Shown one piece after another: positions 2,901-16,088 of a stretch of DNA of 34,425 bases. The notes under the pieces are model-generated. The model was not told where the DNA came from. It did not search any database and worked only from the letters and a program-made list of their open reading frames with translations. Each line of letters starts with the position of its first letter. The first letter of the stretch is position 1. The stretch spans positions 1 through 34,425 of IMG/VR virus record IMGVR_UViG_3300031638_000007. One strand, given 5' to 3'. Origin of the DNA: a virus. The position numbers and the translations under genes are program-made.

Positions 2901-3222
2901 CTACAATCGTAACCGTTATGCCTTCTGGCACTAAAACCTCCTGCGTTTCCTTCCATCCAGCCTGTGTTTTTAGATAGAATATTGCTGCTGTTACGTTTCC
3001 GTCTTTAGCCTGACCAATTAAATTGCCAGCAATTGAGCCTATAGCTTTAGCTTTGCCTCTTTTATAAGACCGAAAAACTTCTGGATCACGTTTCTTTATT
3101 GCTGCAAATGTATCTGAATCTATGCCAAAATAATCAGCAATCTGTTCTTGATTTAATACAGCAGCAAGTGTTTCAACTTCTCTAGCTTGCTCTGGTGTAA
3201 GCTTGATTAATGGTCTAGCCAT
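2893..3222 (-). CDS. terS: Terminase small subunit
   Basis: The 109-aa product begins MARPLIKLTPEQAREVETLA and has an N-terminal helix-turn-helix-like stretch (LNQEQIADYFGIDSDTFAAI, about residues 23-42). It ends with the segment DGNVTAAIFYLKTQAGWKE that is typical of phage small terminases. It would recognise the packaging site and load the large subunit. It overlaps terL by 8 nt. Its ATG (3220-3222) lies inside the last codons of the ParB-like small gene, so the three genes are likely translationally coupled. Confidence 0.9.
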   Translation of the reverse strand: MARPLIKLTPEQAREVETLAAVLNQEQIADYFGIDSDTFAAIKKRDPEVFRSYKRGKAKAIGSIAGNLIGQAKDGNVTAAIFYLKTQAGWKETQEVLVPEGITVTIVDA

Positions 3223-3337
3223 TAGCTAACTCTTTAATGCTGGCTGCTACTTGAGTGACTTGTTCTTCGCTATGAGTGCGAGAATTATTGATATACGGTA
3301 TTAAATCTACCGCCTTTCTGTACTTTACTTCCAACAT
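3215..3337 (-). CDS. Small ParB-like N-terminal domain fragment (40 aa)
   Basis: This short gene starts ATG TTG GAA at 3337 with a good ribosome binding site (GGAG, 5 nt upstream) and ends at TAG 3215-3217, overlapping the terS start. The product is 40 aa and contains VDLIPYINNSRTHSEEQ followed by VAASIKEL. This closely matches the opening of ParB/sulfiredoxin-like domains, usually followed by about 60-80 more residues and, in phages, often by a DNA methylase domain. Here the protein stops just after that segment, before the catalytic or CTP-binding GxxR-type motifs. It is either a decayed remnant kept for its RBS or a domain fragment with its own role. The similarity is clear by eye. Function is unknown. 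Confidence 0.6.
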   Translation of the reverse strand: MLEVKYRKAVDLIPYINNSRTHSEEQVTQVAASIKELANG

Positions 3338-3360
3338 AACCACTCCACTGAACTGGTTGT

Positions 3361-3375
3361 CCCATCACTGATGGG
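3361..3375. other. Small hairpin between holin-like gene and ParB-like fragment
   Basis: The arms CCCATC and GATGGG enclose a 3-nt loop. On the plus strand the hairpin is followed by TTTTGTTT, which is terminator-like, but no plus-strand gene runs into it. On the minus strand it lies between the holin-like gene and the packaging genes and has no U-tract after it. It could be a processing or cos-adjacent structure. Evidence is weak. Confidence 0.3.
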
Positions 3376-3381
3376 TTTTGT

Positions 3382-3579
3382 TTAATTTCCTAAAATGTGT
3401 TGAATTGATGGTGCAAATTCTAGCAGTAATATAGCCCCCATTACTATGTAAGCCGTTTTTTCTAATGTTCCAATCCTACTATCGTGCTTGTCTAATCTTG
3501 ATGCGTGTAAAACTTGCCTGTCTTTTAGGGCGTTTATCTCGCCATCCCGAAGGCCAGCAGAGTAATCATTATCTGGCAT
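3382..3579 (-). CDS. Holin-like / XhlA-like small membrane protein
   Basis: The 65-aa product MPDNDYSAGLRDGEIN... has a hydrophilic, probably helical N-terminal half (LKDRQVLHASRLDKHDSRI) and one C-terminal membrane segment (TAYIVMGAILLLEFAPSI, about residues 43-60). This layout is that of XhlA/hemolysin-type phage lysis proteins. I chose the ATG at 3579 because AAGGA lies 8-9 nt upstream and it overlaps the stop of the preceding gene by one base (TAATG). An in-frame ATG at 3600 lacks a comparable site. Its place next to the M15 peptidase supports a role in lysis. It could instead be an accessory membrane-anchored lysis factor rather than the holin. Confidence 0.6.
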   Translation of the reverse strand: MPDNDYSAGLRDGEINALKDRQVLHASRLDKHDSRIGTLEKTAYIVMGAILLLEFAPSIQHILGN

Positions 3580-3746
3580 TACATCTTTCCTTTCGCGCAT
3601 TTAAGAAAAAGCTCGCGATTCTCTCGGAATTTAGCTACAAATTGATTATCAAGGTCGGTATCTGAGCGTTGTGCTAATCTATCTGCATAGTCAAGTGCAG
3701 CATCTAATGCAAATTCAAAAAACCAGCCCATTAGTAATTTCTTCAT
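3579..3746 (-). CDS. Small protein of lysis region (55 aa), function unknown
   Basis: The product starts MKKLLMGWFFEFALDAALDYADRL when read from the ATG at 3746, which has AGGA 9 nt upstream. It has a short hydrophobic N-terminus (residues 4-18) and a charged C-terminal half ending KCAKGKM. Similar small proteins with a hydrophobic start and a DxxLD...FRENRELF-type tail are common next to phage holins. No function can be given. It overlaps the holin-like start by one base and follows the exported 84-aa protein after a 39-nt gap. Confidence 0.55.
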   Translation of the reverse strand: MKKLLMGWFFEFALDAALDYADRLAQRSDTDLDNQFVAKFRENRELFLKCAKGKM

Positions 3747-3785
3747 AACTGTCATTCCTATAAATTGCAATAAAAAAGGCATTTT

Positions 3786-4040
3786 CTAGCTCAGGTTAAT
3801 TGTTGGCTTTGTATAGCAATCTTTTAAAAAGCCTTTTTTGGGTGTAACTGCTGTACAAGTGTACCTGACAATAATTCCAGTATCATCATTTTTTCCAAAA
3901 CAGATTACATTCTTATCACTAGACTTACACATTAATACCTCGCTGCCTAGCTTAAAAAAATATATCGGATGCTTTGACCCAAGTAATGTTGCAGAGCCAA
4001 TGCTTGTGCTAAAAAATAATAATAGCGCAAATAGTTTCAT
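3786..4040 (-). CDS. Exported four-cysteine protein in lysis cassette
   Basis: The 84-aa product begins with a clear signal peptide (KLFALLLFFSTSIGSAT), with probable cleavage after about residue 17. The mature part has four cysteines (MCKS, VICF, YTCTA, DCYTK), so two disulfides are possible in the periplasm. The ATG follows the M15 peptidase stop with no gap. There is no lipobox (no Cys at a cleavage site), so it is not an Rz1-type spanin. It could be a periplasmic lysis accessory or an exclusion factor; family not recognised. Confidence 0.6.
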   Translation of the reverse strand: MKLFALLLFFSTSIGSATLLGSKHPIYFFKLGSEVLMCKSSDKNVICFGKNDDTGIIVRYTCTAVTPKKGFLKDCYTKPTINLS

Positions 4041-4391
4041 TTAAAACCTAGCTTTAAAATCTCTAACGTCAATATGCGTAAAAGTATCGTAATTGCCTAG
4101 CCCGTACTGATCACTATACATATCATTTAAAAAATTAAAAACATTAACAGGTGCAACACCTCTAACTTTAATATCAGCAGCTTTACCAAGCAAATGCTGG
4201 GAAAACTTAGAACCACCTATATTATTGTTGTGCGTGTAACATCTTGCAGCACTGTTAATTGTAACTGCTACGCCCCAACGATTTCTGACAACCTCTAGCA
4301 ATTTAATAAGTTCTACATCTACGACATTAAAGCCACAACCGCACTTACAGCTAAACTCTGACCTGTTAAAATGTAATGATATATCGCCCAT
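4041..4391 (-). CDS. Endolysin-like M15 peptidase
   Basis: The 116-aa protein belongs by motif to the M15 zinc D-Ala/L-Ala peptidases (Peptidase_M15_3 type). The metal site is visible as SQHLLGKAAD (H66 and D73) and THIDVR (H106). The N-terminus has SEFSCKCGCGF, with cysteines usual in this family. It would cleave peptide cross-links or stems of peptidoglycan during host lysis. I chose the ATG at 4391 because GGGA lies 5 nt upstream. A TTG extension to 4415 is less likely. It has no signal peptide, so it depends on a holin such as the small membrane protein downstream. Confidence 0.88.
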   Translation of the reverse strand: MGDISLHFNRSEFSCKCGCGFNVVDVELIKLLEVVRNRWGVAVTINSAARCYTHNNNIGGSKFSQHLLGKAADIKVRGVAPVNVFNFLNDMYSDQYGLGNYDTFTHIDVRDFKARF

Positions 4392-4483
4392 ATTATTCCC
4401 AGTTAATTCGCCCAAGCTGCAATAATTGTGTTTTGACTGTACTAGTCACATCTGATGGTTTGGCAGTTGGGCTGAAACCTATT

Positions 4484-4517
4484 AAAAGATATTATCTTTT
4501 TTAATTTAATTAATCAA
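4484..4517 (-). promoter_or_regulatory. Candidate lysis/late promoter with AT palindrome over -10
   Basis: On the minus strand TTGATT (4517-4512) and TAATAT (4494-4489) are separated by exactly 17 bp, about 100 bp before the M15 peptidase. A perfect inverted repeat, AAAAGATA and TATCTTTT around one central base (4484-4500), covers the -10 box and could be an operator. The region is very AT-rich, so chance matches are likely. This is only a candidate. Confidence 0.35.
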
Positions 4518-4552
4518 TATTACATAGGAACGAAAAATTATATAAATCGTTC

Positions 4553-4705
4553 CTAACTTTTTCTGCTTTTAGAAAAACCTAAATAATACCAAAACGGAAA
4601 AACCATAGTAATAGCAAGTTGCAATACTAAAGTCGCAATTGTAACAGGCACAATCCACACTAAAGTTCCAAGAACCTTAAATTCAGCCAGCCAAAATTTA
4701 TTCAT
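4553..4705 (-). CDS. Small membrane protein (50 aa)
   Basis: The product starts MNKFWLAEFKVLG and has one long hydrophobic segment (about residues 11-43, containing GTLVWIVPVTIATLVLQLAI) and a basic end (SKSRKS). The upstream site is weak (GAGA, 9 nt before ATG). It fills most of the otherwise empty stretch between the early genes and the lysis cassette. It may be a second holin-type protein or a pinholin, but there is no family match I can name. Confidence 0.5.
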   Translation of the reverse strand: MNKFWLAEFKVLGTLVWIVPVTIATLVLQLAITMVFPFWYYLGFSKSRKS

Positions 4706-4754
4706 AACTTATTTCTCGTTAAAATTTTATGTCGTTCATTTTTTTAAGTAGCTT

Positions 4755-5027
4755 TTATGCAAACTCGTCATAATTTTCACTCATGCTTTCGTTTGTAAGT
4801 GCTAATTGAGATTTTGAATATTCAATTTCTTGATTTGCTCGCAATACTGACAACGCGGTATCTGTTACATTTTCAATATGTATCCACGAATCAACTTTTC
4901 CGTATCCACTATTTTTGTAAAAAAAGATATGGTCTATGCCTGTATCTACATCTTCATCAGTAACAATTACAAAACCGTCATTTTGCAAAGCTGTAATAAT
5001 TTCTTGTTGATTTGTTGTAGTAGCCAT
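4755..5027 (-). CDS. Hypothetical acidic early protein (90 aa)
   Basis: The product begins MATTTNQQEIITALQNDGF and is acidic (VTDEDVDTGID, SENYDEFA). A strong purine-rich site (AGGGGAAAAAAAATG) precedes it, of the same style as several other early genes. A GC-rich hairpin (5044-5059) lies just before that site. No domain recognised. It is the last gene but one of the leftward early set before the lysis region. Confidence 0.6.
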   Translation of the reverse strand: MATTTNQQEIITALQNDGFVIVTDEDVDTGIDHIFFYKNSGYGKVDSWIHIENVTDTALSVLRANQEIEYSKSQLALTNESMSENYDEFA

Positions 5028-5043
5028 TTTTTTTCCCCTAATT

Positions 5044-5059
5044 AGCCCCTGAAGGGGCT
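5044..5059 (-). other. Recurrent intergenic hairpin, copy A
   Basis: The stem is AGCCCC paired with GGGGCT with a TTCA loop on the minus strand. It sits between two early genes, immediately before the RBS of the downstream gene. There is no U-tract, so it does not look like a terminator. Two near-copies occur at 10268-10283 and 10855-10870. Confidence 0.65.
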
Positions 5060-5072
5060 GGTTTATTTAAAC

Positions 5073-5261
5073 CTATATAGTGCAACGAATAGCATTAGCC
5101 TCAGCGCGATATGAAAATCTAGTGTCGCTGGTGTCGGTTGGTGCATAATTTTTTGTATCATCCTCAAGATTATCTAAAAAATATAATCGATTTACCGCTT
5201 CTTGCTGAGTATAAAGTTTAGTAATTTTTGAGCCTCTTCGAGTAATGTATTCAATTTTCAT
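5073..5261 (-). CDS. Hypothetical early protein (62 aa)
   Basis: The product starts MKIEYITRRGSKITKLYTQQ and ends YRAEANAIRCTI. AAGGGAAAAATAAAATG gives it a fair ribosome binding site. It is the first gene after the promoter/operator at 5290-5329, with a leader of about 20 nt, so it should be expressed from that promoter. No recognisable domain. Confidence 0.6.
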   Translation of the reverse strand: MKIEYITRRGSKITKLYTQQEAVNRLYFLDNLEDDTKNYAPTDTSDTRFSYRAEANAIRCTI

Positions 5262-5289
5262 TTTATTTTTCCCTTGTTTAAGTTTAATA

Positions 5290-5329
5290 ATTATAAATTA
5301 TTACCCATAGAATGTAAAGTTTTTTTACA
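5290..5329 (-). promoter_or_regulatory. Early leftward promoter with shared 17-bp operator, copy 1
   Basis: On the minus strand the -35 box TTTACA (5318-5313) and the -10 box TATAAT (5295-5290) are 17 bp apart. The operator TGTAAAGTTTTTTTACA (plus strand, 5313-5329) overlaps the -35 box. The same arrangement recurs at 7983-8022, 10561-10600 and 11105-11144. It drives the gene at 5073-5261 and those beyond it. Confidence 0.85.
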
Positions 5330-5336
5330 TAATAAA

Positions 5337-5573
5337 TTAATTATTCCCTTTACGCCTTGATTCTGCTATCTGATTAAGCTGTTCAGCGATCAATTCCTCT
5401 TCTGCAAATATGCATTTATCCTGTTCAGCCTGTATTAAATCTTTCATTTCTTTATTTCGCAGGGCATAGCCAGCACAAAATGATGATCCCATGTCGTAAA
5501 ACTTATAACTGTTTATTGAATCTGATAATTTAGAATCAGCAGACCATTTTAAAAACTTATCATACAAACTCAT
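5337..5573 (-). CDS. Hypothetical early protein (78 aa)
   Basis: The product starts MSLYDKFLKWSADSKLSDS and has a charged helical C-terminal half (AEQDKCIFAEEELIAEQLN). Its ATG overlaps the ninG stop by 4 nt (ATGA type), so it is translated with ninG. The promoter/operator at 5290-5329 lies directly downstream of its stop. No family recognised. Confidence 0.6.
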   Translation of the reverse strand: MSLYDKFLKWSADSKLSDSINSYKFYDMGSSFCAGYALRNKEMKDLIQAEQDKCIFAEEELIAEQLNQIAESRRKGNN

Positions 5574-5989
5574 TTTCCAACCCTCTCTTCGTGATATTTA
5601 ATCAAATTATTAAGCTCTTGAATCATATCTAAATATTCAGCCTTTCCTATTTTCTTAATTTTATTTTTAAAGATATGCATCATTTCAACGTAATCGCGAC
5701 CATAATAGTCAATCATGTTAATAGTGTATTGCTGCTCTGCTATTCCATATCGCATGCCAAACCCGTTGCACGATCGACATTGGGGATGAATATTGCTCGC
5801 GTCTAACGACCAATAGCTTGAATGTCCTTTTGCAATAAAGTGACCTCCATCCATTTCTTTGTAGTGATAAGCGTCACCGCACGACCAGCAATGAGCATAA
5901 CCATTGTCGTCAGCAGCCGATATTCTGGCTAATTTCTGAGCTAATTTGAGTGCCTTTTTACGCAGGATACCGCTAGTTTCTTTTTTCAT
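5570..5989 (-). CDS. ninG: NinG/Rap-type recombination protein
   Basis: The 139-aa protein matches lambda NinG (Rap), a structure-specific nuclease acting on recombination intermediates such as Holliday junctions. Near the N-terminus is LRKKALKLAQKLARI. The zinc-binding core is CWSCG, a GGHFIAKG segment and CRSCNGF. I chose the ATG at 5989 because GGAAG lies about 9 nt upstream; it lies inside the end of the preceding gene (17-nt overlap). Genes of this family lie with replication and recombination genes in lambdoid phages. Here it sits on the leftward strand, opposite to the erf/exonuclease operon. Confidence 0.88.
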   Translation of the reverse strand: MKKETSGILRKKALKLAQKLARISAADDNGYAHCWSCGDAYHYKEMDGGHFIAKGHSSYWSLDASNIHPQCRSCNGFGMRYGIAEQQYTINMIDYYGRDYVEMMHIFKNKIKKIGKAEYLDMIQELNNLIKYHEERVGK

Positions 5990-6305
5990 CTTTATTTTCT
6001 TCCGCAGGAAATGGAACTGTAACGCCATGCTTTTCACCAACAAACCTGATCATAACTTCCCATACTTCTTTTAATTCTTTGGTGCTTAGTTTGCTAGACG
6101 TTTCTTCAAACATAATGACAGCAATTGGGTTGAACATAAATTTCTTAATTGATTCTTTTGTCCAAGGTATGTCAACCTCTGCTTTTAAAACTTTTCGCAT
6201 ATCCAGACCTGAATCATTAAGCATATTGCCTAAATCATCAAAGCCTTTATGCAAGCTGTTATTTTGCTTTTTAGTGCGTTTAATGGATAGTTTCTGCATT
6301 CTCAT
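5973..6305 (-). CDS. Conserved phage early protein, function unknown (110 aa)
   Basis: The product contains LNDSGLDMRKVLKAEVDIPW, followed by TKESIKKFMFNP and ending near FVGEKHGVTVPFP. I recall this pattern from a family of early phage proteins with no known function. The N-terminus is basic (KLSIKRTKKQNN). It overlaps the upstream gene by 26 nt and ninG by 17 nt, so it belongs to the same operon. Starts at 6305 or 6299 (second Met) are both possible; neither has a strong RBS. A role in replication or recombination is inferred from context only. Confidence 0.65.
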   Translation of the reverse strand: MRMQKLSIKRTKKQNNSLHKGFDDLGNMLNDSGLDMRKVLKAEVDIPWTKESIKKFMFNPIAVIMFEETSSKLSTKELKEVWEVMIRFVGEKHGVTVPFPAEENKDEKRN

Positions 6306-6513
6306 ATTCGTAATATTCTGCCATTTCTGCTTTTTCTTCTTTCAACAGGTTTTTAAGGTCGTGAACTAGCAGCCTAATTTCTCTTGCCGCAACAATTAAA
6401 CATATGCAATCCGCAGAAGTTAAAACATTACCGAACTCATGGTGTCCTATGCTTTCAACAGAGTCAGCAATTTTAAGTTCTTCACAAAATTCATAATCTT
6501 CTTCATCGTTCAT
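6280..6513 (-). CDS. Hypothetical acidic early protein (77 aa)
   Basis: The product starts MNDEEDYEFCEELKIADS and is strongly acidic at both ends with a hydrophobic/helical middle (ADCICLIVAAREIRLLVHDL). Its start overlaps the upstream gene by 11 nt and its end overlaps the next gene. It could be a DNA mimic or an adaptor, but nothing in the sequence settles this. Confidence 0.55.
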   Translation of the reverse strand: MNDEEDYEFCEELKIADSVESIGHHEFGNVLTSADCICLIVAAREIRLLVHDLKNLLKEEKAEMAEYYEYENAETIH

Positions 6514-6694
6514 TTTTTTGCCTTTTTCGCTCGATGTTCATTAATCTAGTAATTTCAGCAACAGCCTCTTCACCCCTATGCTTTACTAACAAAGGTCGCC
6601 AAGTGTAGCGCCAGTAGTCCATCGGGTTTTTAGCTGAATTCACCAACCTTAAATGCTCGCGTATTTCGCATTCAAGGAGGTGATCTTTATCCAT
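6503..6694 (-). CDS. Hypothetical early protein (63 aa)
   Basis: The product starts MDKDHLLECEIREHLRLV, contains PMDYWRYTWRPLLVKHRG and ends in basic residues (NIERKRQKNER). It lies 8 nt after the SSB-tailed gene in the same leftward operon. The aromatic middle and basic tail could suit nucleic-acid binding, but no family was recognised. Confidence 0.55.
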   Translation of the reverse strand: MDKDHLLECEIREHLRLVNSAKNPMDYWRYTWRPLLVKHRGEEAVAEITRLMNIERKRQKNER

Positions 6695-6702
6695 GTTACT
6701 AA

Positions 6703-6972
6703 TTAGAAAGGTATGTCATCAAAGTCATTAACACTTGGCTGAACTGCTGCTGGCTGCGTAGCTGGCATTTCATCCTTAGCCGTTAAGCTAATGTTTAAAG
6801 CTGGTGATTTTGGGTTAGCGTCTGCTTTTCTCTTCCACAGAGATATCCAATAATCTTTGCCCTCAACATTAATCGAACCAGTAAAATCAGGCAGATTAGG
6901 GTTAGCCCCTTCAACCATCTTTTTGTCATTACCCCAAACAGAACCGCGATTTGTATTATCATAAGTCGTCAT
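6703..6972 (-). CDS. Small protein with SSB-like acidic C-terminal tip (89 aa)
   Basis: The product starts MTTYDNTNRGSVWGND. Its middle, INVEGKDYWISLWKRKAD, looks like strands of a small beta domain. The end DFDDIPF is almost the same as the acidic tip of bacterial and phage single-stranded DNA-binding proteins, which recruits replication partners. I chose the ATG at 6972 because GGAG lies 8 nt upstream; an ATG 24 nt further upstream has none. It may be a minimal SSB or a protein that borrows the SSB tip to compete for SSB partners. I cannot confirm an OB-fold by eye. Confidence 0.6.
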   Translation of the reverse strand: MTTYDNTNRGSVWGNDKKMVEGANPNLPDFTGSINVEGKDYWISLWKRKADANPKSPALNISLTAKDEMPATQPAAVQPSVNDFDDIPF

Positions 6973-7192
6973 TATTTTTCTCCAGTTTATCTTCATTTAA
7001 AATTTCAAGCCATCGGTTCAGCGAATCAATAGATTCTTGTATGTCAACCTCAAGCCCCTTTACACTCTTTCCAGCTCTAAGCAGTTTTTTAATTGCGTGT
7101 TGCTGCTCTGGCGCTGCTATGCCATAAATTCTAAAAATTCTATACGGGTCTAACTTTAAACCCTTGTACCAAAAGCTATAATGTTTACGCAT
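6959..7192 (-). CDS. Hypothetical early protein (77 aa)
   Basis: The product starts MRKHYSFWYKGLKLDPYRIF and contains AAPEQQHAIKKLLRAGKSVK and a C-terminal helical part with DIQESIDSLNRWLEI. This layout recalls small phage proteins with a DPYR-I...Y-I..P.QQHA-IKKLLRAG motif, seen by memory in other early regions without known function. It overlaps the SSB-tailed gene by 14 nt and the upstream zinc-ribbon gene by 8 nt. Confidence 0.6.
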   Translation of the reverse strand: MRKHYSFWYKGLKLDPYRIFRIYGIAAPEQQHAIKKLLRAGKSVKGLEVDIQESIDSLNRWLEILNEDKLEKNNDDL

Positions 7193-7415
7193 TATTCATG
7201 TCTTTAATTAAACTTATTCTGCCAAAATTAAAATGATCAATAGCAAGCACAGGTATTAATCGACTTGTTAAGCCTTTCCTTCGTTGACCAGCGCAATCGG
7301 TAGAGCAAGTTAGCCTCTGCACGTAATTACTCCAAACAAGGTATTTACCATTCCGATTAAATCTTGATATTTCCCCATTGCATACTGTGCAGTATCTTTT
7401 TGGTTCTTTTTTCAT
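7185..7415 (-). CDS. Putative zinc-ribbon protein (76 aa)
   Basis: Two cysteine pairs, CTVCNG near residue 9 and CSTDC near residue 37, are spaced as in a small zinc ribbon. The product starts MKKEPKRYCTVCNGEISRF and has a basic character. It might bind DNA or RNA. It lies 5 nt downstream of the next upstream gene and overlaps the following gene by 8 nt. No specific family assigned. Confidence 0.6.
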   Translation of the reverse strand: MKKEPKRYCTVCNGEISRFNRNGKYLVWSNYVQRLTCSTDCAGQRRKGLTSRLIPVLAIDHFNFGRISLIKDMNNA

Positions 7416-7419
7416 TATT

Positions 7420-7734
7420 TTAATCTGCGTTTTTAGCTAAATATATAGCTTCTTTTTGAAGAAAATAGCTATAGCAAAGGTTTTTTAAACTTTGCTTACT
7501 ATCCTGCTTTTCTTTTATGTAATTTTGATAAACAGCCACAACACTTTGATCAAAAGGTGCGGAAAAAACCCATTGTGTTTCTAGCTTAAAAGTTATATAT
7601 GCTAAAGATTGAAACTCTAAGCGTTTAGTGTCATATTTTTTTTGGTCTACTAATCTTCCGCCTGCCAAACGACCTAAAGCCCATAATCTAGCGTGATTAT
7701 AAATAGTTTCAAATTTTTTAATTTTACGTTTCAT
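7420..7734 (-). CDS. Hypothetical basic early protein (104 aa)
   Basis: The product starts MKRKIKKFETIYNHARLWAL and is rich in Lys, Tyr and Phe, likely mostly helical. The ribosome binding site AAAGGGGAAAAAAATG is strong. It is the second gene after the promoter/operator at 7983-8022. No domain was recognised. Confidence 0.6.
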   Translation of the reverse strand: MKRKIKKFETIYNHARLWALGRLAGGRLVDQKKYDTKRLEFQSLAYITFKLETQWVFSAPFDQSVVAVYQNYIKEKQDSKQSLKNLCYSYFLQKEAIYLAKNAD

Positions 7735-7755
7735 TTTTTTCCCCTTTAGTATTTG

Positions 7756-7956
7756 TTAAATTTTAGTAAAAGTAAAATGATCAGTTTGGCAGCAACGCTC
7801 TTTACCGCTTCTGCAACCTTTTATAATAAATGTAGCACCTTCGCTACCTTGTATCATTTGGGTTATACGGCCTTCGACTGTGTAATAGGTGTTCACGAGG
7901 TAAGACACTTTATCACCAACTTTAAACTCGTTATATTCATTTACTATTTGAGCCAT
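7756..7956 (-). CDS. Hypothetical early protein with small beta domain (66 aa)
   Basis: The product starts MAQIVNEYNEFKVGDKVSYL and alternates short strands (YYTVEGRITQMIQ, ATFIIKGCRSG), a pattern like a small KOW/SH3-type barrel. It has a strong RBS (AAAAGGGGAAAAAAAAATG) and is the first gene behind promoter/operator copy 2. The fold is an inference by eye; family unknown. Confidence 0.6.
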   Translation of the reverse strand: MAQIVNEYNEFKVGDKVSYLVNTYYTVEGRITQMIQGSEGATFIIKGCRSGKERCCQTDHFTFTKI

Positions 7957-7982
7957 TTTTTTTTCCCCTTTTAAGTTTAATA

Positions 7983-8022
7983 ATTATAAATTAAGTTGCG
8001 TTAGATGTAAAGTTTTTTAACA
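7983..8022 (-). promoter_or_regulatory. Early leftward promoter with shared 17-bp operator, copy 2
   Basis: On the minus strand, TTTACA (8011-8006) and TATAAT (7988-7983) are 17 bp apart. The operator at 8006-8022 differs from the others at one position (TGTAAAGTTTTTTAACA). The promoter lies between the end of the HNH gene and the gene at 7756-7956, so it restarts transcription downstream of the homing endonuclease. Confidence 0.85.
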
Positions 8023-8034
8023 TAAATAAATAAT

Positions 8035-8517
8035 TTATTTACCTGTATTGGCGTGATAGCCATTTTTAAACTCAAAAGATTTCCTAATGCAACACGCCTC
8101 GAAAAAATCTGCTGTACGCCCAATAAACTTTTGAGCTAACCTAACTCTATATATTTGATCTGGTTTATACCAAGTAACTCCTGATATCATTGTGCCTGAC
8201 CTTTTATCTAAAGATTGATTTTTTGCATTTTCCGCAGTAGTTACATTCCTTAAATTTACTAGCCGATTGTTCAGCCTATTATGATCAATATGATCAATTT
8301 GGTCAGGCCATGCGCCATAAACTAACAACCAAATAATTCGATGGGCAAGATAAGTTTTTTTTTGAAATTTAACTTTAATATAGCCAGCCATGTTGAAACC
8401 ACCAGCTAAAGAACCAGCCCATGCAGTTCCAGTTCTGCCTACTTTCCAGCGCAACTCACCATTAAATTTATTATACGAAAAATACTGGTTTGCCAATGCT
8501 TGTGTTAATTCGCTCAT
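8035..8517 (-). CDS. HNH homing endonuclease with AP2-like DNA-binding end
   Basis: The 160-aa product has the HNH_3 core: AHRIIWLLVYGAW followed by IDHIDHNRLNNR (about residues 74-84) and NLRNVTTAENAKNQ. A C-terminal part with SGVTWYKPDQIYRVRLAQ resembles the AP2-like DNA-binding domain common in free-standing phage HNH endonucleases. Such enzymes cut phage genomes that lack the gene and so spread themselves. It sits between the replication gene and promoter copy 2 with no group I intron visible, so it is a free-standing mobile gene. It appears intact. Confidence 0.88.
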   Translation of the reverse strand: MSELTQALANQYFSYNKFNGELRWKVGRTGTAWAGSLAGGFNMAGYIKVKFQKKTYLAHRIIWLLVYGAWPDQIDHIDHNRLNNRLVNLRNVTTAENAKNQSLDKRSGTMISGVTWYKPDQIYRVRLAQKFIGRTADFFEACCIRKSFEFKNGYHANTGK

Positions 8518-8538
8518 TTATTCCACCTTAGGTTATTT

Positions 8539-8868
8539 TTATAAATTGCCTTTACAGGCTTTTGCTAATTGTTCAGCATACTTACCAATCATAATTACCC
8601 TTTCATCTTTTGTAATTGCTTCATTACTTCTGTCAGCCAGTGCTAACTGATCACTTTTCATAGATTCTGAGCCAACCTTGCAAAGTGCTTTAAACTCTCC
8701 AATTGTTGGTGGCCAAGATGGGTATCTGTCGATCATAGTGTCTAAACCTTGTTTAATTTGATTATTAGATAAACTTGACAAATCCATTGCCCAAATCTTT
8801 TTCGCTTCGTCAGTAAAAGCTTCATCGGGAAACTGGCTAGCCCACTTGTGCGAGTATTTAATCATCAT
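8539..8868 (-). CDS. Replication protein P-like (helicase loader type)
   Basis: The product has the core seen in lambda P-like proteins: YSHKWASQFPDE, a helical part and RYPSWPPTIGEFKALC. In lambda, P brings the host DnaB helicase to the origin-bound O protein. I place the start at one of two adjacent ATGs (8868 or 8865), which overlap the end of the O-like gene; this gives about 109 aa. The open frame extends to 8997, but that would mean a 140-nt overlap and a non-matching N-terminus. At 109 aa it is much shorter than lambda P, so only the C-terminal DnaB-loading-type part is kept. Confidence 0.7.
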   Translation of the reverse strand: MMIKYSHKWASQFPDEAFTDEAKKIWAMDLSSLSNNQIKQGLDTMIDRYPSWPPTIGEFKALCKVGSESMKSDQLALADRSNEAITKDERVIMIGKYAEQLAKACKGNL

Positions 8869-9637
8869 CACTGAAAATACGCGCGATATTACATTCCCAG
8901 CCAAAGGGGTCTTCTGATGCAATGTCTGCTTGGAGTTTACGAGAGAGCCGAGCGAGATTTGATTCAGGTCTGGCATTATTGATTTTAGTTGTTTCATTGT
9001 TTTTTCCGTTTAGTTTTTTTGGAAATACACCAGCCCAGCGTGATTCTATACTCGTATCAATTGCAGTCTGCTGTTCTTCGTCTGTATAACCTTTTAATTT
9101 ATTACACACCTTTGTTTTTGACAAATCAGTAAATGGCTTATTCATTTCCTTTCGATGCTGAGTAAATTCTTTAAATGCTTTTTGATTAACCCATTCAGGA
9201 ATTTTAAACAAACATGTTTTAGTAGGTTTTGGGTTAGTAGGTATTGGGTATTGGGTATTGGGTAGTATAACGTTCGTATTACGCTCGCTATACGGATCAG
9301 ATACGTTCGTATTACGTTCGTATTTTTCCCACCGTTTATTAACGCTTTCACGGGCTTTTTCGGATTTCTTATAAATCTTGCCTAATACCAAATCAGCTTT
9401 ATCATTGTGATAACCATCATCTTTTAAGGTAAAAAACTCATCAAGAATGATATTAAGAGAATCTATTTGCTCACTAGTTAGGCGTAGCCTTCTTGATAAA
9501 ATAGCTATATTTGAAGGTAATGGAAGTTCTGACAGGTAATATTCATCAAGTAATTCGCGATAAATATAGTGTTCAATAACTGTTAAATGCCGCGTATCTT
9601 TACGGTAATCAGCTATATTAAATTGATAATAATGCAT
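8858..9637 (-). CDS. DUF1376/O-like replication initiation protein
   Basis: The 259-aa protein starts MHYYQFNIADYRKDTRHLTV, a clear DUF1376 (YdaU-type) opening with LTVIEHYIYRELLDEYYLSE and a winged-helix-like continuation. The middle is low complexity (ERNTNV repeated at 11-residue spacing, then Pro/Asn-rich) and is encoded by the tandem DNA repeats at 9241-9324. The C-terminal part has FKEFTQHRKEMNKPF and ends with an acidic tip. The ATG at 9637 has AAAGGAG 5-6 nt upstream, which fixes the start; an open frame reaching 9700 has no RBS. The O-like gene carrying repeats and followed by a P-like gene mirrors lambda O/P with its internal origin. Confidence 0.82.
   Translation of the reverse strand: MHYYQFNIADYRKDTRHLTVIEHYIYRELLDEYYLSELPLPSNIAILSRRLRLTSEQIDSLNIILDEFFTLKDDGYHNDKADLVLGKIYKKSEKARESVNKRWEKYERNTNVSDPYSERNTNVILPNTQYPIPTNPKPTKTCLFKIPEWVNQKAFKEFTQHRKEMNKPFTDLSKTKVCNKLKGYTDEEQQTAIDTSIESRWAGVFPKKLNGKNNETTKINNARPESNLARLSRKLQADIASEDPFGWECNIARIFSDDD
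9241..9324. repeat. Tandem repeats inside O-like gene, probable replication origin iterons
   Basis: Five consecutive 11-bp units cover 9270-9324. Units 1, 4 and 5 are exactly ACGTTCGTATT; units 2 (ACGCTCGCTAT) and 3 (ACGGATCAGAT) are degenerate but keep the phase. Beside them, 9241-9261 holds three exact 7-bp copies of GTATTGG. In lambda the origin is a set of iterons inside gene O, so this position and structure suggest the phage origin. An 11-bp period places the repeats on one face of the helix. Confidence 0.72.
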
Positions 9638-9658
9638 AAAAACTCCTTTAAACCCTTT

Positions 9659-9733
9659 AAAAAATAAGTGCGGTCTCACTGGAAAAGGGAGGAAAGCCAT
9701 ACAACAGGTAATTACTCCTGCTGCGAGACCGCA
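9659..9733 (-). promoter_or_regulatory. Structured RNA leader before the replication genes
   Basis: On the minus strand a 9-bp stem, TGCGGTCTC (9733-9725) with GAGACCGCA (9677-9669), encloses 47 nt. Inside is a second hairpin, CAGCAGG paired with CCTGTTG (9723-9717 with 9708-9702, one G-U). The outer stem is followed by CTTATTTTTT, as in an intrinsic terminator. The single-stranded part holds TTTCCTCCC, which could pair with the AAAGGAG ribosome binding site of the O-like gene 20 nt downstream. This could be an attenuator or a translation switch. Confidence 0.5.
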
Positions 9734-9741
9734 TAATTGAA

Positions 9742-9867
9742 TTATATATAATTAAATTTAGAATTAAAAGCAACTACTGCAATTAAAATGACACCTAGCA
9801 AATTAACACCTAAGTGATCAGCTCCCATTGCTAGCACAAAGCCAGCTACTAATATTATTTTTTCCAC
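9742..9867 (-). CDS. Small membrane protein (41 aa)
   Basis: Read from GTG at 9867, with AGGAG 8 nt upstream, the product is M-EKIILVAGFVLAMGADHLG followed by a second hydrophobic stretch (NLLGVILIAVVAF). It could form one long or two short membrane spans. It overlaps the 34-aa gene upstream by 13 nt. It lies just before the structured leader of the replication genes. Function unknown. Confidence 0.5.
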   Translation of the reverse strand: MEKIILVAGFVLAMGADHLGVNLLGVILIAVVAFNSKFNYI

Positions 9868-9959
9868 TGTAAAAACTCCTGCTGTGCTACTTTGTAGGCT
9901 TGGCTAACTGAATAGCCAGCTTTGATTAATCGTTTAACTCGCTTTTGTATATCAGTCAT
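9855..9959 (-). CDS. Tiny basic helical protein (34 aa)
   Basis: The product is MTDIQKRVKRLIKAGYSVSQ followed by AYKVAQQEFLQWKK. It is basic and helical, with a short GYSVSQAYKVA turn that resembles part of a helix-turn-helix. Its ATG (9957-9959) lies directly before the stop of the upstream gene (9961), which suggests coupling. No RBS of note. A small DNA-binding or regulatory peptide is possible. Confidence 0.45.
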   Translation of the reverse strand: MTDIQKRVKRLIKAGYSVSQAYKVAQQEFLQWKK

Positions 9960-9960
9960 T

Positions 9961-10245
9961 TTATTTACCAGCCCTGCTAATTTGCATTTCTAAAACTCGA
10001 TTATCATAGTCAGCTTTTAAAATAGACTCAAGATGATCAAATGCCTGTGAATAAACATCCTCGCTTAGAATATCCTTAATGCAAATCTCCGAGCCTTCAT
10101 TGCCGACTGGAGCAAGCAATTCCAACACTTCTAATTCTCCATCAAAGTCAAAGCAGTAAACCGCCTCAACGTGTACATTATCATCGATAATAATATCTAG
10201 CGTTTCAATACCTAGATTTGGTTGTGTCTTGTAAAATGATGCCAT
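9961..10245 (-). CDS. Hypothetical acidic early protein (94 aa)
   Basis: The product starts MASFYKTQPNLGIETLDIII. It is acidic, alternates short strands (EAVYCFDFDGELEVLELLAP) with a helical end, and has a good RBS (AGAGG). A GC-rich hairpin (10268-10283) precedes the RBS. It resembles small phage proteins with a strand-rich N-terminus and unknown function. No domain assigned. Confidence 0.6.
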   Translation of the reverse strand: MASFYKTQPNLGIETLDIIIDDNVHVEAVYCFDFDGELEVLELLAPVGNEGSEICIKDILSEDVYSQAFDHLESILKADYDNRVLEMQISRAGK

Positions 10246-10267
10246 TTTTTTATCCTCTTTTAAGTTA

Positions 10268-10283
10268 GCGCCCGAAGGGGCGT
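10268..10283 (-). other. Recurrent intergenic hairpin, copy B
   Basis: On the minus strand the stem ACGCCC pairs with GGGCGCT-side bases around a CTTC/TTCG loop. It lies between two early genes just upstream of the RBS, like copies A and C, and has no U-tract. Confidence 0.6.
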
Positions 10284-10303
10284 TTGTTTAAGTTTAATAA
10301 AGC

Positions 10304-10534
10304 CTAAAAAGGCATATCTGATCTATATTTAACGTTCAGGTATTTATGTGCAGTTTTCAAGTATTCAGTTAGGCGTAAACCTTCTACTAAGTAAACTTGA
10401 CGCTCTTCTGAGACATAAACATCCATGCCTCCACTATTAAGGTCAAATGTAGTCTCGTATTTTTTGTTTTCCCAGATACCTATAAAAACTTCTGTAAATC
10501 CGTAATTCTTTAACATTAGCTTTAATTTTTTCAT
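10304..10534 (-). CDS. Hypothetical early protein (76 aa)
   Basis: The product starts MKKLKLMLKNYGFTEVFIGI and is strand-rich (KKYETTFDLNSGGMDVYVSE, RQVYLVEGLRLTEYL). It has the RBS AAGAGGAAAACAAAATG and is the first gene behind promoter/operator copy 3. No family recognised. Confidence 0.6.
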   Translation of the reverse strand: MKKLKLMLKNYGFTEVFIGIWENKKYETTFDLNSGGMDVYVSEERQVYLVEGLRLTEYLKTAHKYLNVKYRSDMPF

Positions 10535-10560
10535 TTTGTTTTCCTCTTTTAAGTTTAATA

Positions 10561-10600
10561 ATTATATTTTATTTAAATTACTATGTAAAGTTTTTTTACA
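10561..10600 (-). promoter_or_regulatory. Early leftward promoter with shared 17-bp operator, copy 3
   Basis: On the minus strand, TTTACA (10589-10584) and TATAAT (10566-10561) are 17 bp apart. The operator TGTAAAGTTTTTTTACA is at 10584-10600. It lies between the genes at 10613-10837 and 10304-10534. Confidence 0.87.
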
Positions 10601-10612
10601 ATTAAATTAAAA

Positions 10613-10837
10613 TTAGTCTTCACCGCCAGAACGCTCTTTTCTTTCCTCTATTCTTTCTTCGATTGACAATGATTTTCTCCAAATTATTTCCTGTTTTCTT
10701 TCGCGTATTGCTCTAGCCTTTGATCTAGCCCTGTCATCAATAGCTGCTTGTGATGATTCATACTCTTTACTTTTAGCTAAAAGCTCTGCTTCATATTCTG
10801 CAAAAAATTCGCCCATTGGTCTTATTTTTTCTTTCAT
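10613..10837 (-). CDS. Hypothetical charged coiled-coil protein (74 aa)
   Basis: The product starts MKEKIRPMGEFFAEYEAELL and is almost entirely helix-forming and highly charged (RARSKARAIRERKQEIIWRK, then EERIEERKERSGGED). A coiled coil or a nucleic-acid-binding helix is likely. It is expressed with the gene at 10877-11074 from the main leftward promoter. Function unknown. Confidence 0.58.
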   Translation of the reverse strand: MKEKIRPMGEFFAEYEAELLAKSKEYESSQAAIDDRARSKARAIRERKQEIIWRKSLSIEERIEERKERSGGED

Positions 10838-10854
10838 TTTTTTTTACCTAAGTT

Positions 10855-10870
10855 AGCCCCCGAAGGGGCT
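10855..10870 (-). other. Recurrent intergenic hairpin, copy C (UUCG tetraloop)
   Basis: On the minus strand, AGCCCC-TTCG-GGGGCT forms a 6-bp stem with a very stable UUCG loop. It sits between the genes at 10877-11074 and 10613-10837. No U-tract follows on that strand. Confidence 0.7.
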
Positions 10871-10876
10871 GTTAGT

Positions 10877-11074
10877 TTATGAATTAAACTGTATTGCAGT
10901 TTCAATTTGCAAGTTAGCATCTTCAAAAGTAAAAGGCAGCTTGTAAGCTCTTAATACTTTTTGCATGTTAGCAATGTCTTTATTGTCTATAGAGTATATA
11001 TAAGCTGCATCTTCACATAAGTTAATGTGGTTGAAAACTTGCTCTTGATTCTTCATTATGTTTCCGTTTTTCAT
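10877..11074 (-). CDS. Hypothetical first leftward early protein (65 aa)
   Basis: The product starts MKNGNIMKNQEQVFNHINLC and ends DANLQIETAIQFNS; acidic, mostly helical. It occupies the position that a CI-type repressor takes in lambdoid phages (first gene left of the operators), but shows no helix-turn-helix or LexA-like cleavage domain. It is preceded by GAGAG and promoter/operator copy 4. It may be an early takeover or regulatory protein. Confidence 0.58.
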   Translation of the reverse strand: MKNGNIMKNQEQVFNHINLCEDAAYIYSIDNKDIANMQKVLRAYKLPFTFEDANLQIETAIQFNS

Positions 11075-11104
11075 TTTGTTTCTCTCTTTTGTTTAAGTAA
11101 GTAA

Positions 11105-11144
11105 AGTATAAGCTATATCAATCAGTATGTAAAGTTTTTTTACA
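11105..11144 (-). promoter_or_regulatory. Main early leftward promoter with shared 17-bp operator, copy 4
   Basis: On the minus strand, TTTACA (11133-11128) and TATACT (11110-11105) are 17 bp apart. The operator TGTAAAGTTTTTTTACA is at 11128-11144. It faces away from the cro-like promoter about 45 bp to the right, forming the divergent early control region. Confidence 0.87.
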
Positions 11145-11172
11145 CATTTATTTATTAATTAAATACGGCAAT

Positions 11173-11205
11173 TTACTTTACATCTATTGTAAAGTAATTT
11201 ACACT
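11173..11205 (+). promoter_or_regulatory. Rightward promoter/operator of the cro-like gene
   Basis: TTTACA (11177-11182) and TACACT (11200-11205) are 17 bp apart. A perfect inverted repeat, TTACTTTACA and TGTAAAGTAA around 5 nt (11173-11197), and a second overlapping one, TGTAAA-gtaa-TTTACA (11188-11203), cover the promoter. These are the same half-sites as in the four leftward operators. The predicted start (7 nt after the -10 box) is base 11212, the A of the ATG. Confidence 0.78.
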
Positions 11206-11211
11206 TGTCGG

Positions 11212-11388
11212 ATGAAAAAATCACACGCAATAAGTATTTTTGGTTCTACTAAAGAATTAGTTGAGGCTTTAGGCATGACACGACAGGCTGTACATTTATG
11301 GTCTGACGTTCTAACGCAAAAGCAGGCTGATCAAGTAGTTGGTGCAGCAGTTAGATTAAAGGTTAAATACAAAGAGGATTTAAAGTGA
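11212..11388 (+). CDS. Cro-like DNA-binding regulator (P22-Cro family type)
   Basis: The 58-aa product starts MKKSHAISIFGSTKELVEAL and continues GMTRQAVHLWSDVLTQKQAD. This is the short helix-turn-helix of P22-Cro-like proteins, which bind palindromic operators as dimers and shut off early promoters. It is the only clear DNA-binding regulator in the window and the first gene of the rightward operon. There is no Shine-Dalgarno site, and the predicted transcript begins at the ATG, so it may be leaderless. Its last codons overlap the GTG of the next gene (GTGA). I infer that it binds the TGTAAA/TTTACA operators found at five places. Confidence 0.78.
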   Translation: MKKSHAISIFGSTKELVEALGMTRQAVHLWSDVLTQKQADQVVGAAVRLKVKYKEDLK

Positions 11389-11672
11389 GTAATTTTATAA
11401 AAATATCCAACAAATATGCAATAGCATCTGATGCTAGGCAATGGATGGTTCAAAAGTATTCGCCCCGTAAAGATGATAAACCTGACTGGCAGTCAATATC
11501 ATTTCATGGCAAGCTGTCACAGGCTGTTAAAGCACTAGGGGAACATCTACTAATGACTAGCGGTTCAAGTAGCGTGACAGAGCTTGTCGGGGCAGCAACA
11601 GACATATCTAGGATGCTATCTAAGTCGTTTACTGTTGAATCCGAAGTTAAATACCCAGAGGATTTAAAATGA
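11385..11672 (+). CDS. Conserved phage early protein, function unknown (95 aa)
   Basis: Read from GTG at 11385 with AGAGG upstream. The product starts MSNFIKISNKYAIASDARQW, a pattern (ISDKYAI-SD-RQW) I recall from small early phage proteins, possibly related to DUF5405, although I am not sure. The C-terminus SEVKYPEDLK repeats that of the cro-like protein (VKYKEDLK), because a 27-bp sequence is duplicated at both gene ends. It is co-translated with its neighbours (4-nt overlaps). Confidence 0.65.
   Translation: MSNFIKISNKYAIASDARQWMVQKYSPRKDDKPDWQSISFHGKLSQAVKALGEHLLMTSGSSSVTELVGAATDISRMLSKSFTVESEVKYPEDLK
11646..11672 (+). repeat. 27-bp gene-junction repeat (second copy; first at 11362-11388)
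   Basis: The two 27-bp stretches differ at three positions. Each encodes VKYxEDLK and stop, carries the GAGG ribosome binding site of the next gene and ends in the overlapping GTGA or ATGA start/stop. They are 284 bp apart. Confidence 0.8.
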
Positions 11673-11833
11673 AAGTTAATTGGATAGACGTAAGGGAAGA
11701 CTATGCCCGTAAAGATGCTGAGATTAAACAGCTAACTGAGTTAAAAGAAACGCAAGAGCAAAGGATTAAAATGCTGATAGGTTTATTATCAGTTCAGGAT
11801 TTAAAGTATTATGAAGATGCAATAAATAGGTAG
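11669..11833 (+). CDS. Small coiled-coil protein (54 aa)
   Basis: The product starts MKVNWIDVREDYARKDAEIK and continues through a charged helix (LTELKETQEQRIKMLI). It overlaps the upstream gene by 4 nt with the RBS GAGG. It is the last gene before the terminator at 11844-11873. A regulatory role (for instance in antitermination) would fit the position, but it is not arginine-rich like lambda N and shows no known motif. Confidence 0.6.
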   Translation: MKVNWIDVREDYARKDAEIKQLTELKETQEQRIKMLIGLLSVQDLKYYEDAINR

Positions 11834-11843
11834 TTTCCTCATT

Positions 11844-11873
11844 GTGCGCGTTGTGATGGCGCGTACTTTTTTT
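11844..11873 (+). terminator. Rho-independent terminator within the rightward operon
   Basis: The arms GTGCGCG (11844-11850) and CGCGTAC (11860-11866) pair over 7 bp with one G-U, around a 9-nt loop, followed by seven T. It separates the cro-like group from the recombination genes. No promoter of comparable quality is visible between it and the next gene. Confidence 0.82.
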
Positions 11874-11891
11874 AATTTAAAAGGGTGATGT

Positions 11892-11993
11892 ATGAGTAAA
11901 ATGGGAGAATGGATTTTAGAAAATGCTGAGTTTAACGAAGATGAACTGGCGCAAAATAATCAAAACAATGAAGATAATCAAGGGGAAAAATAA
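11892..11993 (+). CDS. Tiny acidic protein (33 aa)
   Basis: The product MSKMGEWILENAEFNEDELA continues with an Asn/Gln/Glu-rich end (QNNQNNEDNQGEK). GGGTGA precedes the ATG and its stop overlaps the erf start by one base (TAATG). It probably serves translational coupling to erf or a minor early role. Confidence 0.5.
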   Translation: MSKMGEWILENAEFNEDELAQNNQNNEDNQGEK

Positions 11994-12568
11994 TGGAAGC
12001 ACTAAGTCATATTCAATTTGTGTTAGCCGCGCCAAAAAATGCAGAAAATAAATTTGGTGGCTATAAATATCGGACAGCAGAATCAATTTTAGAAGCTGTT
12101 AAGCCATTACTAAATGAGACAGGCTCAACAGTAACATTAAGTGATGATCTAGTCCTAGTCGGTGACAGATACTACGTTAAAGCAACAGCTACGTTTACTT
12201 GTAAAAGTGAAAGTTTTAGCGTTTCAGCTTTTGCGCGCGAAGCTTTACAACAAAAGGGCATGGTCGAACCAATGCTAACAGGTAGCTCTAGCAGCTATGC
12301 TAGAAAGTACGCATTAAACGGTTTATTTGCTATTGATAATTCCGAACAAGACCCAGACACAAAAGACAACAGGAATTACGAGCCAGTTGATGAAGTATGT
12401 AGGTCTGGTCAAGTCGAGTCGATTGAGAAATTAATCACAGAATCTAATTCTGACAAGTCGGTTTTTTGCAATTACTTTAGCATTAAAACAATTAGCGAAT
12501 TAAAGCAAAAAGATCACGCAACAGCAGTTGCAATGCTTAACGCTAAAATCAAAAATGGTTCAAAATAA
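11993..12568 (+). CDS. erf: ERF-family single-strand annealing recombinase
   Basis: The 191-aa protein has the ERF-family opening NKFGGYKYRTAESILEAVKP, followed by MLTGSSSSYARKYALNGLF, the core conserved in P22 Erf-like proteins. These annealing proteins coat ssDNA left by an exonuclease and promote strand annealing, here in the host cytoplasm. In P22, Erf circularises the incoming DNA. It ends in a C-terminal segment unlike the core. The partner exonuclease follows at once (TAATG overlap). Confidence 0.9.
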   Translation: MEALSHIQFVLAAPKNAENKFGGYKYRTAESILEAVKPLLNETGSTVTLSDDLVLVGDRYYVKATATFTCKSESFSVSAFAREALQQKGMVEPMLTGSSSSYARKYALNGLFAIDNSEQDPDTKDNRNYEPVDEVCRSGQVESIEKLITESNSDKSVFCNYFSIKTISELKQKDHATAVAMLNAKIKNGSK

Positions 12569-13194
12569 TGCATATATCTGAAAACGCACAAGGTACTGAT
12601 GAATGGATGATAGAAAGAACTGGTATTGTAACTGGTTCTAATTTCAACAGCATTTTTACAAGTACAGGAAAAAAGAGCGCATCAGCCGAAGGGTATAGGA
12701 ATCAGCTACTGGCAGAATGGGTTACAGGCACTAAAACATCGATAAAGGCCACGGAATGGATGCAGCGAGGCGTTGAGCTAGAACCAAGGGCAAAGCTTGC
12801 CTATGAAATTATAACAGGACACAGCGTCACTGAGGTAGGTCTGTGTCGAGATAGCAAAGATAGCTTAATAGGTGTATCACCTGACGGCTTAGTTGAAAAT
12901 ATGCTTATATACTCGCATGGCCTTGAAATTAAGTGTCCAATGCCAGCAAATCATATTCAATATATATCGGATAGAAAGCTGCCAACCGCCTACGTTCAGC
13001 AAGTACAAGGCTCAATGTTAATAACGGGAATCGATAGCTGGGATTTTATGAGCTACCATCCTGCTATGCCGCATTTCTTAATTACTGTGGAAAAAGATCA
13101 AAAATATCACAATTTGATAAAGCCAATTCTTGATGACTTTATTGGTGAAATGCTTAAAAAACGAGAATTTTTAAGTGATTTTATTAATGATTAA
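12568..13194 (+). CDS. YqaJ/lambda-exonuclease-like recombination nuclease
   Basis: The 208-aa product has the YqaJ viral recombinase pattern: GTDEWMIERTGIVTGSNF at the start, ELEPRAKLAYE, GVSPDGLVE (the metal-binding Asp), GLEIKCP (the E-x-K catalytic pair) and YVQQVQGSMLIT. It would resect DNA 5' to 3' to give ssDNA for the ERF protein. Gene order erf-exo with coupling is the usual two-component recombination module. Its stop overlaps the start of the next small gene by 8 nt. Confidence 0.92.
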   Translation: MHISENAQGTDEWMIERTGIVTGSNFNSIFTSTGKKSASAEGYRNQLLAEWVTGTKTSIKATEWMQRGVELEPRAKLAYEIITGHSVTEVGLCRDSKDSLIGVSPDGLVENMLIYSHGLEIKCPMPANHIQYISDRKLPTAYVQQVQGSMLITGIDSWDFMSYHPAMPHFLITVEKDQKYHNLIKPILDDFIGEMLKKREFLSDFIND

Positions 13195-13318
13195 TTTAAT
13201 CCAGTTTTTAGTTATAGTTTTTTTATTAACTGTGATGTTTGCTGGCGAGACCATTGTAATAGGTAGCCAGCAGCATCTTTTAGATTGGTCTTTTTGCGTA
13301 GCAACACAATTAAATTAG
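13187..13318 (+). CDS. Small membrane protein (43 aa)
   Basis: The product starts MINLIQFLVIVFLLTVMFAG and so has one N-terminal membrane helix, followed by about 20 polar residues (ETIVIGSQQHLLDWSF). It begins inside the end of the exonuclease gene and has no strong RBS of its own, so coupling is needed. A role in exclusion or in membrane attachment is possible. Coding status is plausible, not certain. Confidence 0.45.
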   Translation: MINLIQFLVIVFLLTVMFAGETIVIGSQQHLLDWSFCVATQLN

Positions 13319-13329
13319 AGGTAAAAAAA

Positions 13330-13554
13330 ATGAAAACATTATTATTATTATTAGTATTTAGCACTGCATCATTTGCAGGACAGAAATGCACCAAAGATTA
13401 TTTTGGGAATTATAGTTGCTACGGAACTGGTCAAGACTATGGCTATAGGTCTAGCGAGCAAAAAGATTATTTTGGAAATAGCACTTGGACTGACAATAAA
13501 GGCAATAGGACAAAATGTACCTATGATTATTTAGGTAATTATAGCTGCAACTAG
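13330..13554 (+). CDS. Exported cysteine-rich repeat protein (74 aa)
   Basis: Starting at the ATG 13330 (AGAGG 8 nt upstream), the product has a clear signal peptide (MKTLLLLLVFSTASFAG). The mature part is built of related units: CTKDYFGNYSC, QKDYFGNSTW and CTYDYLGNYSC. The cysteines are paired in the first and last units. A secreted or periplasmic role, such as blocking superinfection, is an inference from its type and position at the end of the early operon. An open frame reaching 13285 without RBS is less likely. Confidence 0.7.
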   Translation: MKTLLLLLVFSTASFAGQKCTKDYFGNYSCYGTGQDYGYRSSEQKDYFGNSTWTDNKGNRTKCTYDYLGNYSCN

Positions 13555-13656
13555 TTTAAACATGGAGCTGCGCCAGATCGCAGTAAAGTCCTGTGCAACG
13601 GAAGAAATGGTGCACTCATTAGAGCGTCTTTTATAATCACTTTCGACAGGCATTAA
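13555..13656. other. Gap between convergent operons
   Basis: About 100 bp separate the end of the rightward operon from the end of the leftward late operon. It holds a 5-bp stem (CTGCG and CGCAG, 6-nt loop) and a 5-bp GTGCA/TGCAC pair, neither followed by a clean T-run. No convincing terminator was found, and a 24-codon ATG-to-TAA frame on the plus strand has no RBS. Confidence 0.4.
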
Positions 13657-14814: not shown

Positions 14815-14821
14815 AAGATTA

Positions 14822-15130: not shown

Positions 15131-15131
15131 T

Positions 15132-16085: not shown

Positions 16086-16088
16086 CTG

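Follow-up and report, generated by a model that had tools for sequence, protein, structure and literature searches.

Operators and promoter modules dispersed over a phage genome have been published for P1 and for the cluster A and cluster K mycobacteriophages, so that the distributed regulon that a sequence-only reading of the DNA analysed here had taken to be undescribed does have precedents. P1 has 22 dispersed 17-bp operators for one phage regulator, C1 (PMC8546580), and L5 and the cluster A phages have >20 dispersed repressor sites, comprising operators and stoperators (PMC9283540). In the ESAS elements of cluster K (Adephagia, TM4), SigA-like intergenic promoters are combined with a conserved inverted repeat, with seven of them in Adephagia, and repression through the repeats by an unidentified regulator has been proposed (PMC3203893, PMC11373665). 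As for small Cro-type proteins, CP-933P YdaS is a Cro analogue and binds inverted repeats that overlap divergent promoters (PMC8630535).

The window examined here comprises an entire virus record (34,425 bases). Bases 1-300 are repeated at 33284-33583 with 96% identity, and the end of the record (33256-34425) is matched at 94% by the near-identical contig L005, which is the same phage (99.98%). From this imperfect end overlap (94-96% identity; probable extent 1-1142 with 33284-34425), the genome is probably circularly permuted and ∼33.3 kb long, its two ends having been assembled from strain variants. The structural genes are siphophage-like, and TerL is 57-60% identical to those of Plesiomonas phage phiP4-7 and Kagunavirus. 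Among the leftward genes are DUF1376/primosomal, P-like, SSB-like, NinG-like and endolysin genes; a short rightward series has a P22-Cro/YdaS-like gene first and contains ERF and YqaJ-type recombination genes. Family searches of the genome gave no integrase or resolvase match (PF00589, PF00239) and no match to a CI-type lysogeny repressor (HTH_3 and S24; PF01381, PF00717), so the earlier description of the phage as lambdoid is not supported in its full sense.

Four 17-bp dyads, each supplying the -35 box of a leftward promoter, are found in this genome. The sequence TGTAAAGTTTTTTTACA is exact at 5313, 10584 and 11128 and has one mismatch at 8006, the same positions that the sequence-only reading had given, and a scan of the whole genome at up to 3 mismatches returned these four sites and no further one; 0.77 were expected, and four were reached in 0/100 shuffles. 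At 8006 it is the half-site distal to the -35 box that carries the mismatch (TGTTAA). Relaxing the search to TGTAAA-N5-TTTACA with 2 mismatches gave no enrichment (8 sites vs 5 expected), hence the signal resides in the exact 17-mer and its promoter position. The same site sequence is present at several separate places of the genome, where it overlaps promoters or lies between genes.

Regarding the promoters, the pattern CTTTACA-N15..19-TATAMT occurs four times in the genome, always on the minus strand and at the dyads, against 0.04 expected; the spacer from TTTACA to TATAAT or TATACT is 17 bp at 4/4 sites, which bears out the identical spacing reported earlier. When promoters were scored over bases 1-17000, three of the four were the best-scoring ones (11/12), and the fourth reached 10/12. 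The predicted starts are 11098, 10554, 7976 and 5283, and start codons follow at 11074, 10534, 7956 and 5261, that is 24, 20, 20 and 22 nt further on (P11098, P10554, P7976 and P5283, respectively), so a gene does begin shortly after each promoter. Three of the four promoters also have in common TATAATTATTAAACTTAAA, the -10 box with the 13 nt that follow it, for which 0.12 occurrences were expected. The elements are as follows:

11128..11144, minus strand: operator-like dyad 1 (minus-strand TGTAAAAAAACTTTACA), with 11128-11133 as the -35 box of P11098
11105..11110, minus strand: -10 box TATACT of P11098
10877..11074, minus strand: 65-aa ORF after P11098, without family match
10584..10600, minus strand: operator-like dyad 2, with 10584-10589 as the -35 box of P10554
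10561..10566, minus strand: -10 box TATAAT of P10554, then TATTAAACTTAAA
10304..10534, minus strand: 76-aa ORF after P10554
8006..8022, minus strand: operator-like dyad 3 (one mismatch), with 8006-8011 as the -35 box of P7976
7983..7988, minus strand: -10 box TATAAT of P7976, then TATTAAACTTAAA
7756..7956, minus strand: 66-aa ORF after P7976
5313..5329, minus strand: operator-like dyad 4, with 5313-5318 as the -35 box of P5283
5290..5295, minus strand: -10 box TATAAT of P5283, then TATTAAACTTAAA
5073..5261, minus strand: 62-aa ORF after P5283

The proposed division of the early region into four separate transcription units was not borne out: a scan for terminators yielded no candidate on the minus strand immediately upstream of the four promoters, and in the simplest picture these look like re-initiation points within one leftward gene series. 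This series continues into the lysis and packaging genes, to which the last promoter, P5283, leads. The recognised genes downstream of the promoters are:

8858-9700: DUF1376 primosomal-type gene, downstream of P10554 and its 76-aa ORF
8539-8997: P-like helicase loader gene, downstream of P10554
8035-8517: HNH gene, downstream of P10554
6703-6972: SSB-like gene, downstream of P7976
5570-5995: NinG-like gene, downstream of P7976
4041-4391: endolysin gene, downstream of P5283
2893-3222: putative terminase small subunit gene, downstream of P5283
1659-2900: TerL gene, downstream of P5283

Upstream of the endolysin gene, the inverted repeat GGAACGA-N13-TCGTTCC (4527-4553) encloses a minus-strand TATAAT and may represent a late promoter that carries an operator of its own. 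As for folding, the copy at 10835-10885 is the only copy that folds clearly better than shuffles (z -3.6).

The sole DNA-binding regulator recognised in the genome is encoded beside dyad 1, and its promoter holds two further dyads:

11212..11388, plus strand: P22-Cro/YdaS-like DNA-binding protein, 58 aa, the candidate regulator
11177..11205, plus strand: rightward cro promoter, TTTACA-17-TACACT, with predicted start at ∼11212
11173..11197, plus strand: perfect dyad TTACTTTACA-N5-TGTAAAGTAA, in the cro promoter
11188..11203, plus strand: dyad TGTAAAGTAATTTACA (TGTAAA-N4-TTTACA), overlapping the -10 box of the cro promoter

The matches of this protein to PF14549 (25.0 bits, cut-off 30.2) and PF15943 (23.6 bits, cut-off 30) fall under the curated Pfam and NCBIfam cut-offs; it matches phrog_409 at E 2e-7, and P22 Cro (PDB 1rzs, E 0.003) is its sole PDB sequence match. 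A single-sequence fold model had low confidence (mean pLDDT 66), and Foldseek with this model found nothing within an E limit of 0.001. For the gene that follows cro (11385-11672), a YdaT/CII-like identity was considered and dropped, since Pfam and NCBIfam gave no match; it matches only phrog_154, whose annotation is replication initiation protein. Transcription from the cro promoter is predicted to start on the cro ATG, for which reason the cro message may be leaderless. The dyads in this promoter, missed in the earlier reading, are built from the CTTTACA/TGTAAAG half-site of the four leftward operators, and apart from the one at 11173-11197, the genome has a single dyad whose perfect arms reach ≥9 bp with a gap of at most 9. 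To judge from the sequence, candidate cognate dyads are thus present in the promoter of the candidate regulator itself.

On these grounds, the four 17-bp dyads are probably operators of the Cro-like protein, which would repress several early promoters through them. Early in infection, host RNA polymerase with its main sigma factor would read the four leftward promoters and the divergent cro promoter; as the Cro-like protein accumulates, its dimers would bind TGTAAA-N5-TTTACA and cover the -35 box, lowering transcription from all four leftward promoters and, through the half-sites at 11173-11203, from its own gene. P7976, whose distal half-site is damaged, would be repressed least or last. This model starts from sites, spacing, conservation against diverged surroundings, a Cro-like gene and a half-site in the cro promoter, all of them observed; promoter activity, binding, repression and timing are the parts that we infer. 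In its favor, the four sites and four promoters are far above chance, the gene for a P22-Cro/YdaS/DicC-like protein adjoins operator 1, and, of the perfect dyads in the genome, one of the two longest lies in the cro promoter and has the same half-site. CP-933P YdaS, as a Cro analogue that binds inverted repeats over divergent promoters, also speaks for the model. From the shared half-site we infer a shared regulator, and the uneven half-site spacing is a real weakness of this step: it is N5 in the leftward operators, and N4 plus an inverted N5 arrangement at cro. It should also be noted that P5283 precedes lysis and packaging genes, where an early-type shut-off is unexpected unless another late promoter exists. 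The sub-threshold family matches and low-confidence fold model of the Cro-like protein weigh against the model as well.

A first alternative, which we consider unlikely, is that the block is only a strong promoter type, a UP-element-like A-tract with a TTTACA -35 box that was duplicated and is bound by no regulator. The A7 tract at about -43 to -37 fits this reading, being in what we take to be the expected place of the proximal UP subsite, and so does Bacillus phage G, which repeats AAAAAC(A/T)GTTTACA-17-TATAAT with the deviating bases in the distal half. When the four copies are aligned on the dyad, however, pairwise identity is 94-100% within its 17 bp, but only 29-59% across the spacer (17 bp) and 33-67% across the 15 bp on the upstream side. 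The identity block starts with the distal TGT, a triplet required neither by sigma70 nor by an A-tract; this TGT and the C preceding the -35 box are the same in 4/4 copies while their neighbors vary. Four-way identity of an unconstrained distal TGT would have a probability of ∼1e-7 from local base frequencies, assuming independent copies and saturated flanks. Further, identical half-sites build the dyads of the cro promoter in other arrangements. Being conserved in diverged surroundings, the dyad resembles a site for protein binding, something more than an A-tract joined to a -35 box.

A second alternative is that the dyad is bound by another regulator, either an unrecognised phage protein or a host one, and not by the Cro-like protein. 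This is quite improbable, given that the Cro-like gene adjoins operator 1 and has the half-site in its own promoter, but several observations point that way. The host TyrR box is TGTAAA-N6-TTTACA, which the dyads resemble, although their spacing of N5 or N4 departs from the N6 consensus. Several early ORFs are without family match, and the promoter inverted repeats of cluster K likewise lack a known binder (PMC11373665). Finally, the phages around L007 have a similar half-site and no recognised Cro homologue beside their promoter modules, a point that also counts against the operator model.

L007 is the closest long relative (TerL 82%) and is without the 17-mer; it has two neighboring promoter modules with CTTTACA as the -35 box and TGTAAAATACTTTACA over the -10 box. 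The module pattern in the related group (L007, L422-L427) is CTTTACA at -35 and TGTAAA-N4-TTTACA over -10, which speaks for the operator model, and five further contigs of the group carry a matching module; the letters searched for were fixed by the search, so that conservation can be read only from the unsearched bases (TTCTCT, TCAACTAA). A few hundred bases downstream of the modules is a gene whose 65-aa product is conserved; by eye this protein had seemed Cro-like, but no reliable result came from family, PDB or fold searches.

As for other comparisons, no relative sharing this early region was found for a conservation test. The 17-mer is absent from L006-L011, and the early regions of the TerL relatives differ; the ERF and DUF1376 relatives have no counterpart of the small early genes, the Cro relatives L411 and L412 are too distant to help, and Pantoea phage PdC23, which has a Cro relative, has no repeated dyad. 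Another TerL relative, L014, has three promoters (573, 2911 and 5348) that share TAAAATAANNCTAGACA before the -10 box; by its sequence this is another repeated promoter family. An exact scan of IMG/VR for the 17-mer gave 68 matches, nearly all single and taken as chance. Those in L224, L245, L260, L277, L281, L282 and L285 were rejected as promoters, being tandem arrays of 6-7 TGTAAAGTTTCTTTACA-like dyads spaced ∼31-33 bp, with some wider gaps between copies; these are perhaps iterons, a partition site or clustered operators. The promoter TGTAAA-N5-TTTACA-17-TATAAT also recurs 2-5 times in short stretches of the unrelated contigs L367 (Bacillus phage G), L379, L305, L316, L317, L372, L326, L336 and L391.

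That the dyads bind an activator, with the regulon switched on and not off, is very improbable: some phage regulators, such as CII, do act near the -35 region, but near-consensus -35 and -10 boxes with a 17-bp spacer (10-11 of 12) make an activator unnecessary, a protein with its centre on the -35 box would be expected to obstruct polymerase, and neither an HTH nor a YdaT match was obtained for the gene that follows cro (11385-11672).

Returning to repression by the Cro-like protein, a more tentative extension, which may well not hold, is that this protein is a lone timing device: operators on the -35 boxes would shut the leftward series together, and operator quality would set the order. The phage has no recognisable lysogeny repressor, and three of its operators are exact and one is damaged. 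If the operator model is true, the phage would offer a compact and easily tested dispersed regulon of the Cro type in a phage without recognised CI or integrase, and a defined operator for studying how promoter modules multiply within an operon.

In comparison with the known systems, the 17-bp sites are spread over the genome as those of P1 C1 are, but the P1 operators are asymmetric and belong to the lysogeny repressor, whereas this phage has a dyad as its site and gave no match to a lysogeny repressor. Dispersed sites are also shared with L5 and cluster A; there a monomer binds asymmetric 13-mers, many of which are thought to stop elongation and not initiation. CP-933P YdaS and P22 Cro offer the parallel of a small Cro-type protein with inverted-repeat operators over divergent promoters; their operators, in contrast, are concentrated at control regions and oppose a CI-type repressor, while those of this phage are dispersed, with no CI recognised. 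Bacillus phage G repeats TGTAAA-N5-TTTACA-17-TATAAT at several positions, but it is an unrelated jumbo phage in which the distal half-site is often imperfect. With ESAS the locus shares several promoter copies with an inverted repeat, the ESAS promoter spacing being 17-18 bp; the ESAS repeats are longer and 12-14 bp apart, and the known immunity repressor of those phages is probably not the binder, whereas the dyad here is compact, lies on the -35 box and has a Cro-like gene adjoining. The design is therefore already known from other phages, and this phage is a tidy new example of it; less usual is that a Cro-like protein goes with it while no lysogeny repressor is recognised. If the reading is true, it would support the idea that promoter-plus-dyad repeats, as in cluster K and Bacillus phage G, arise repeatedly.
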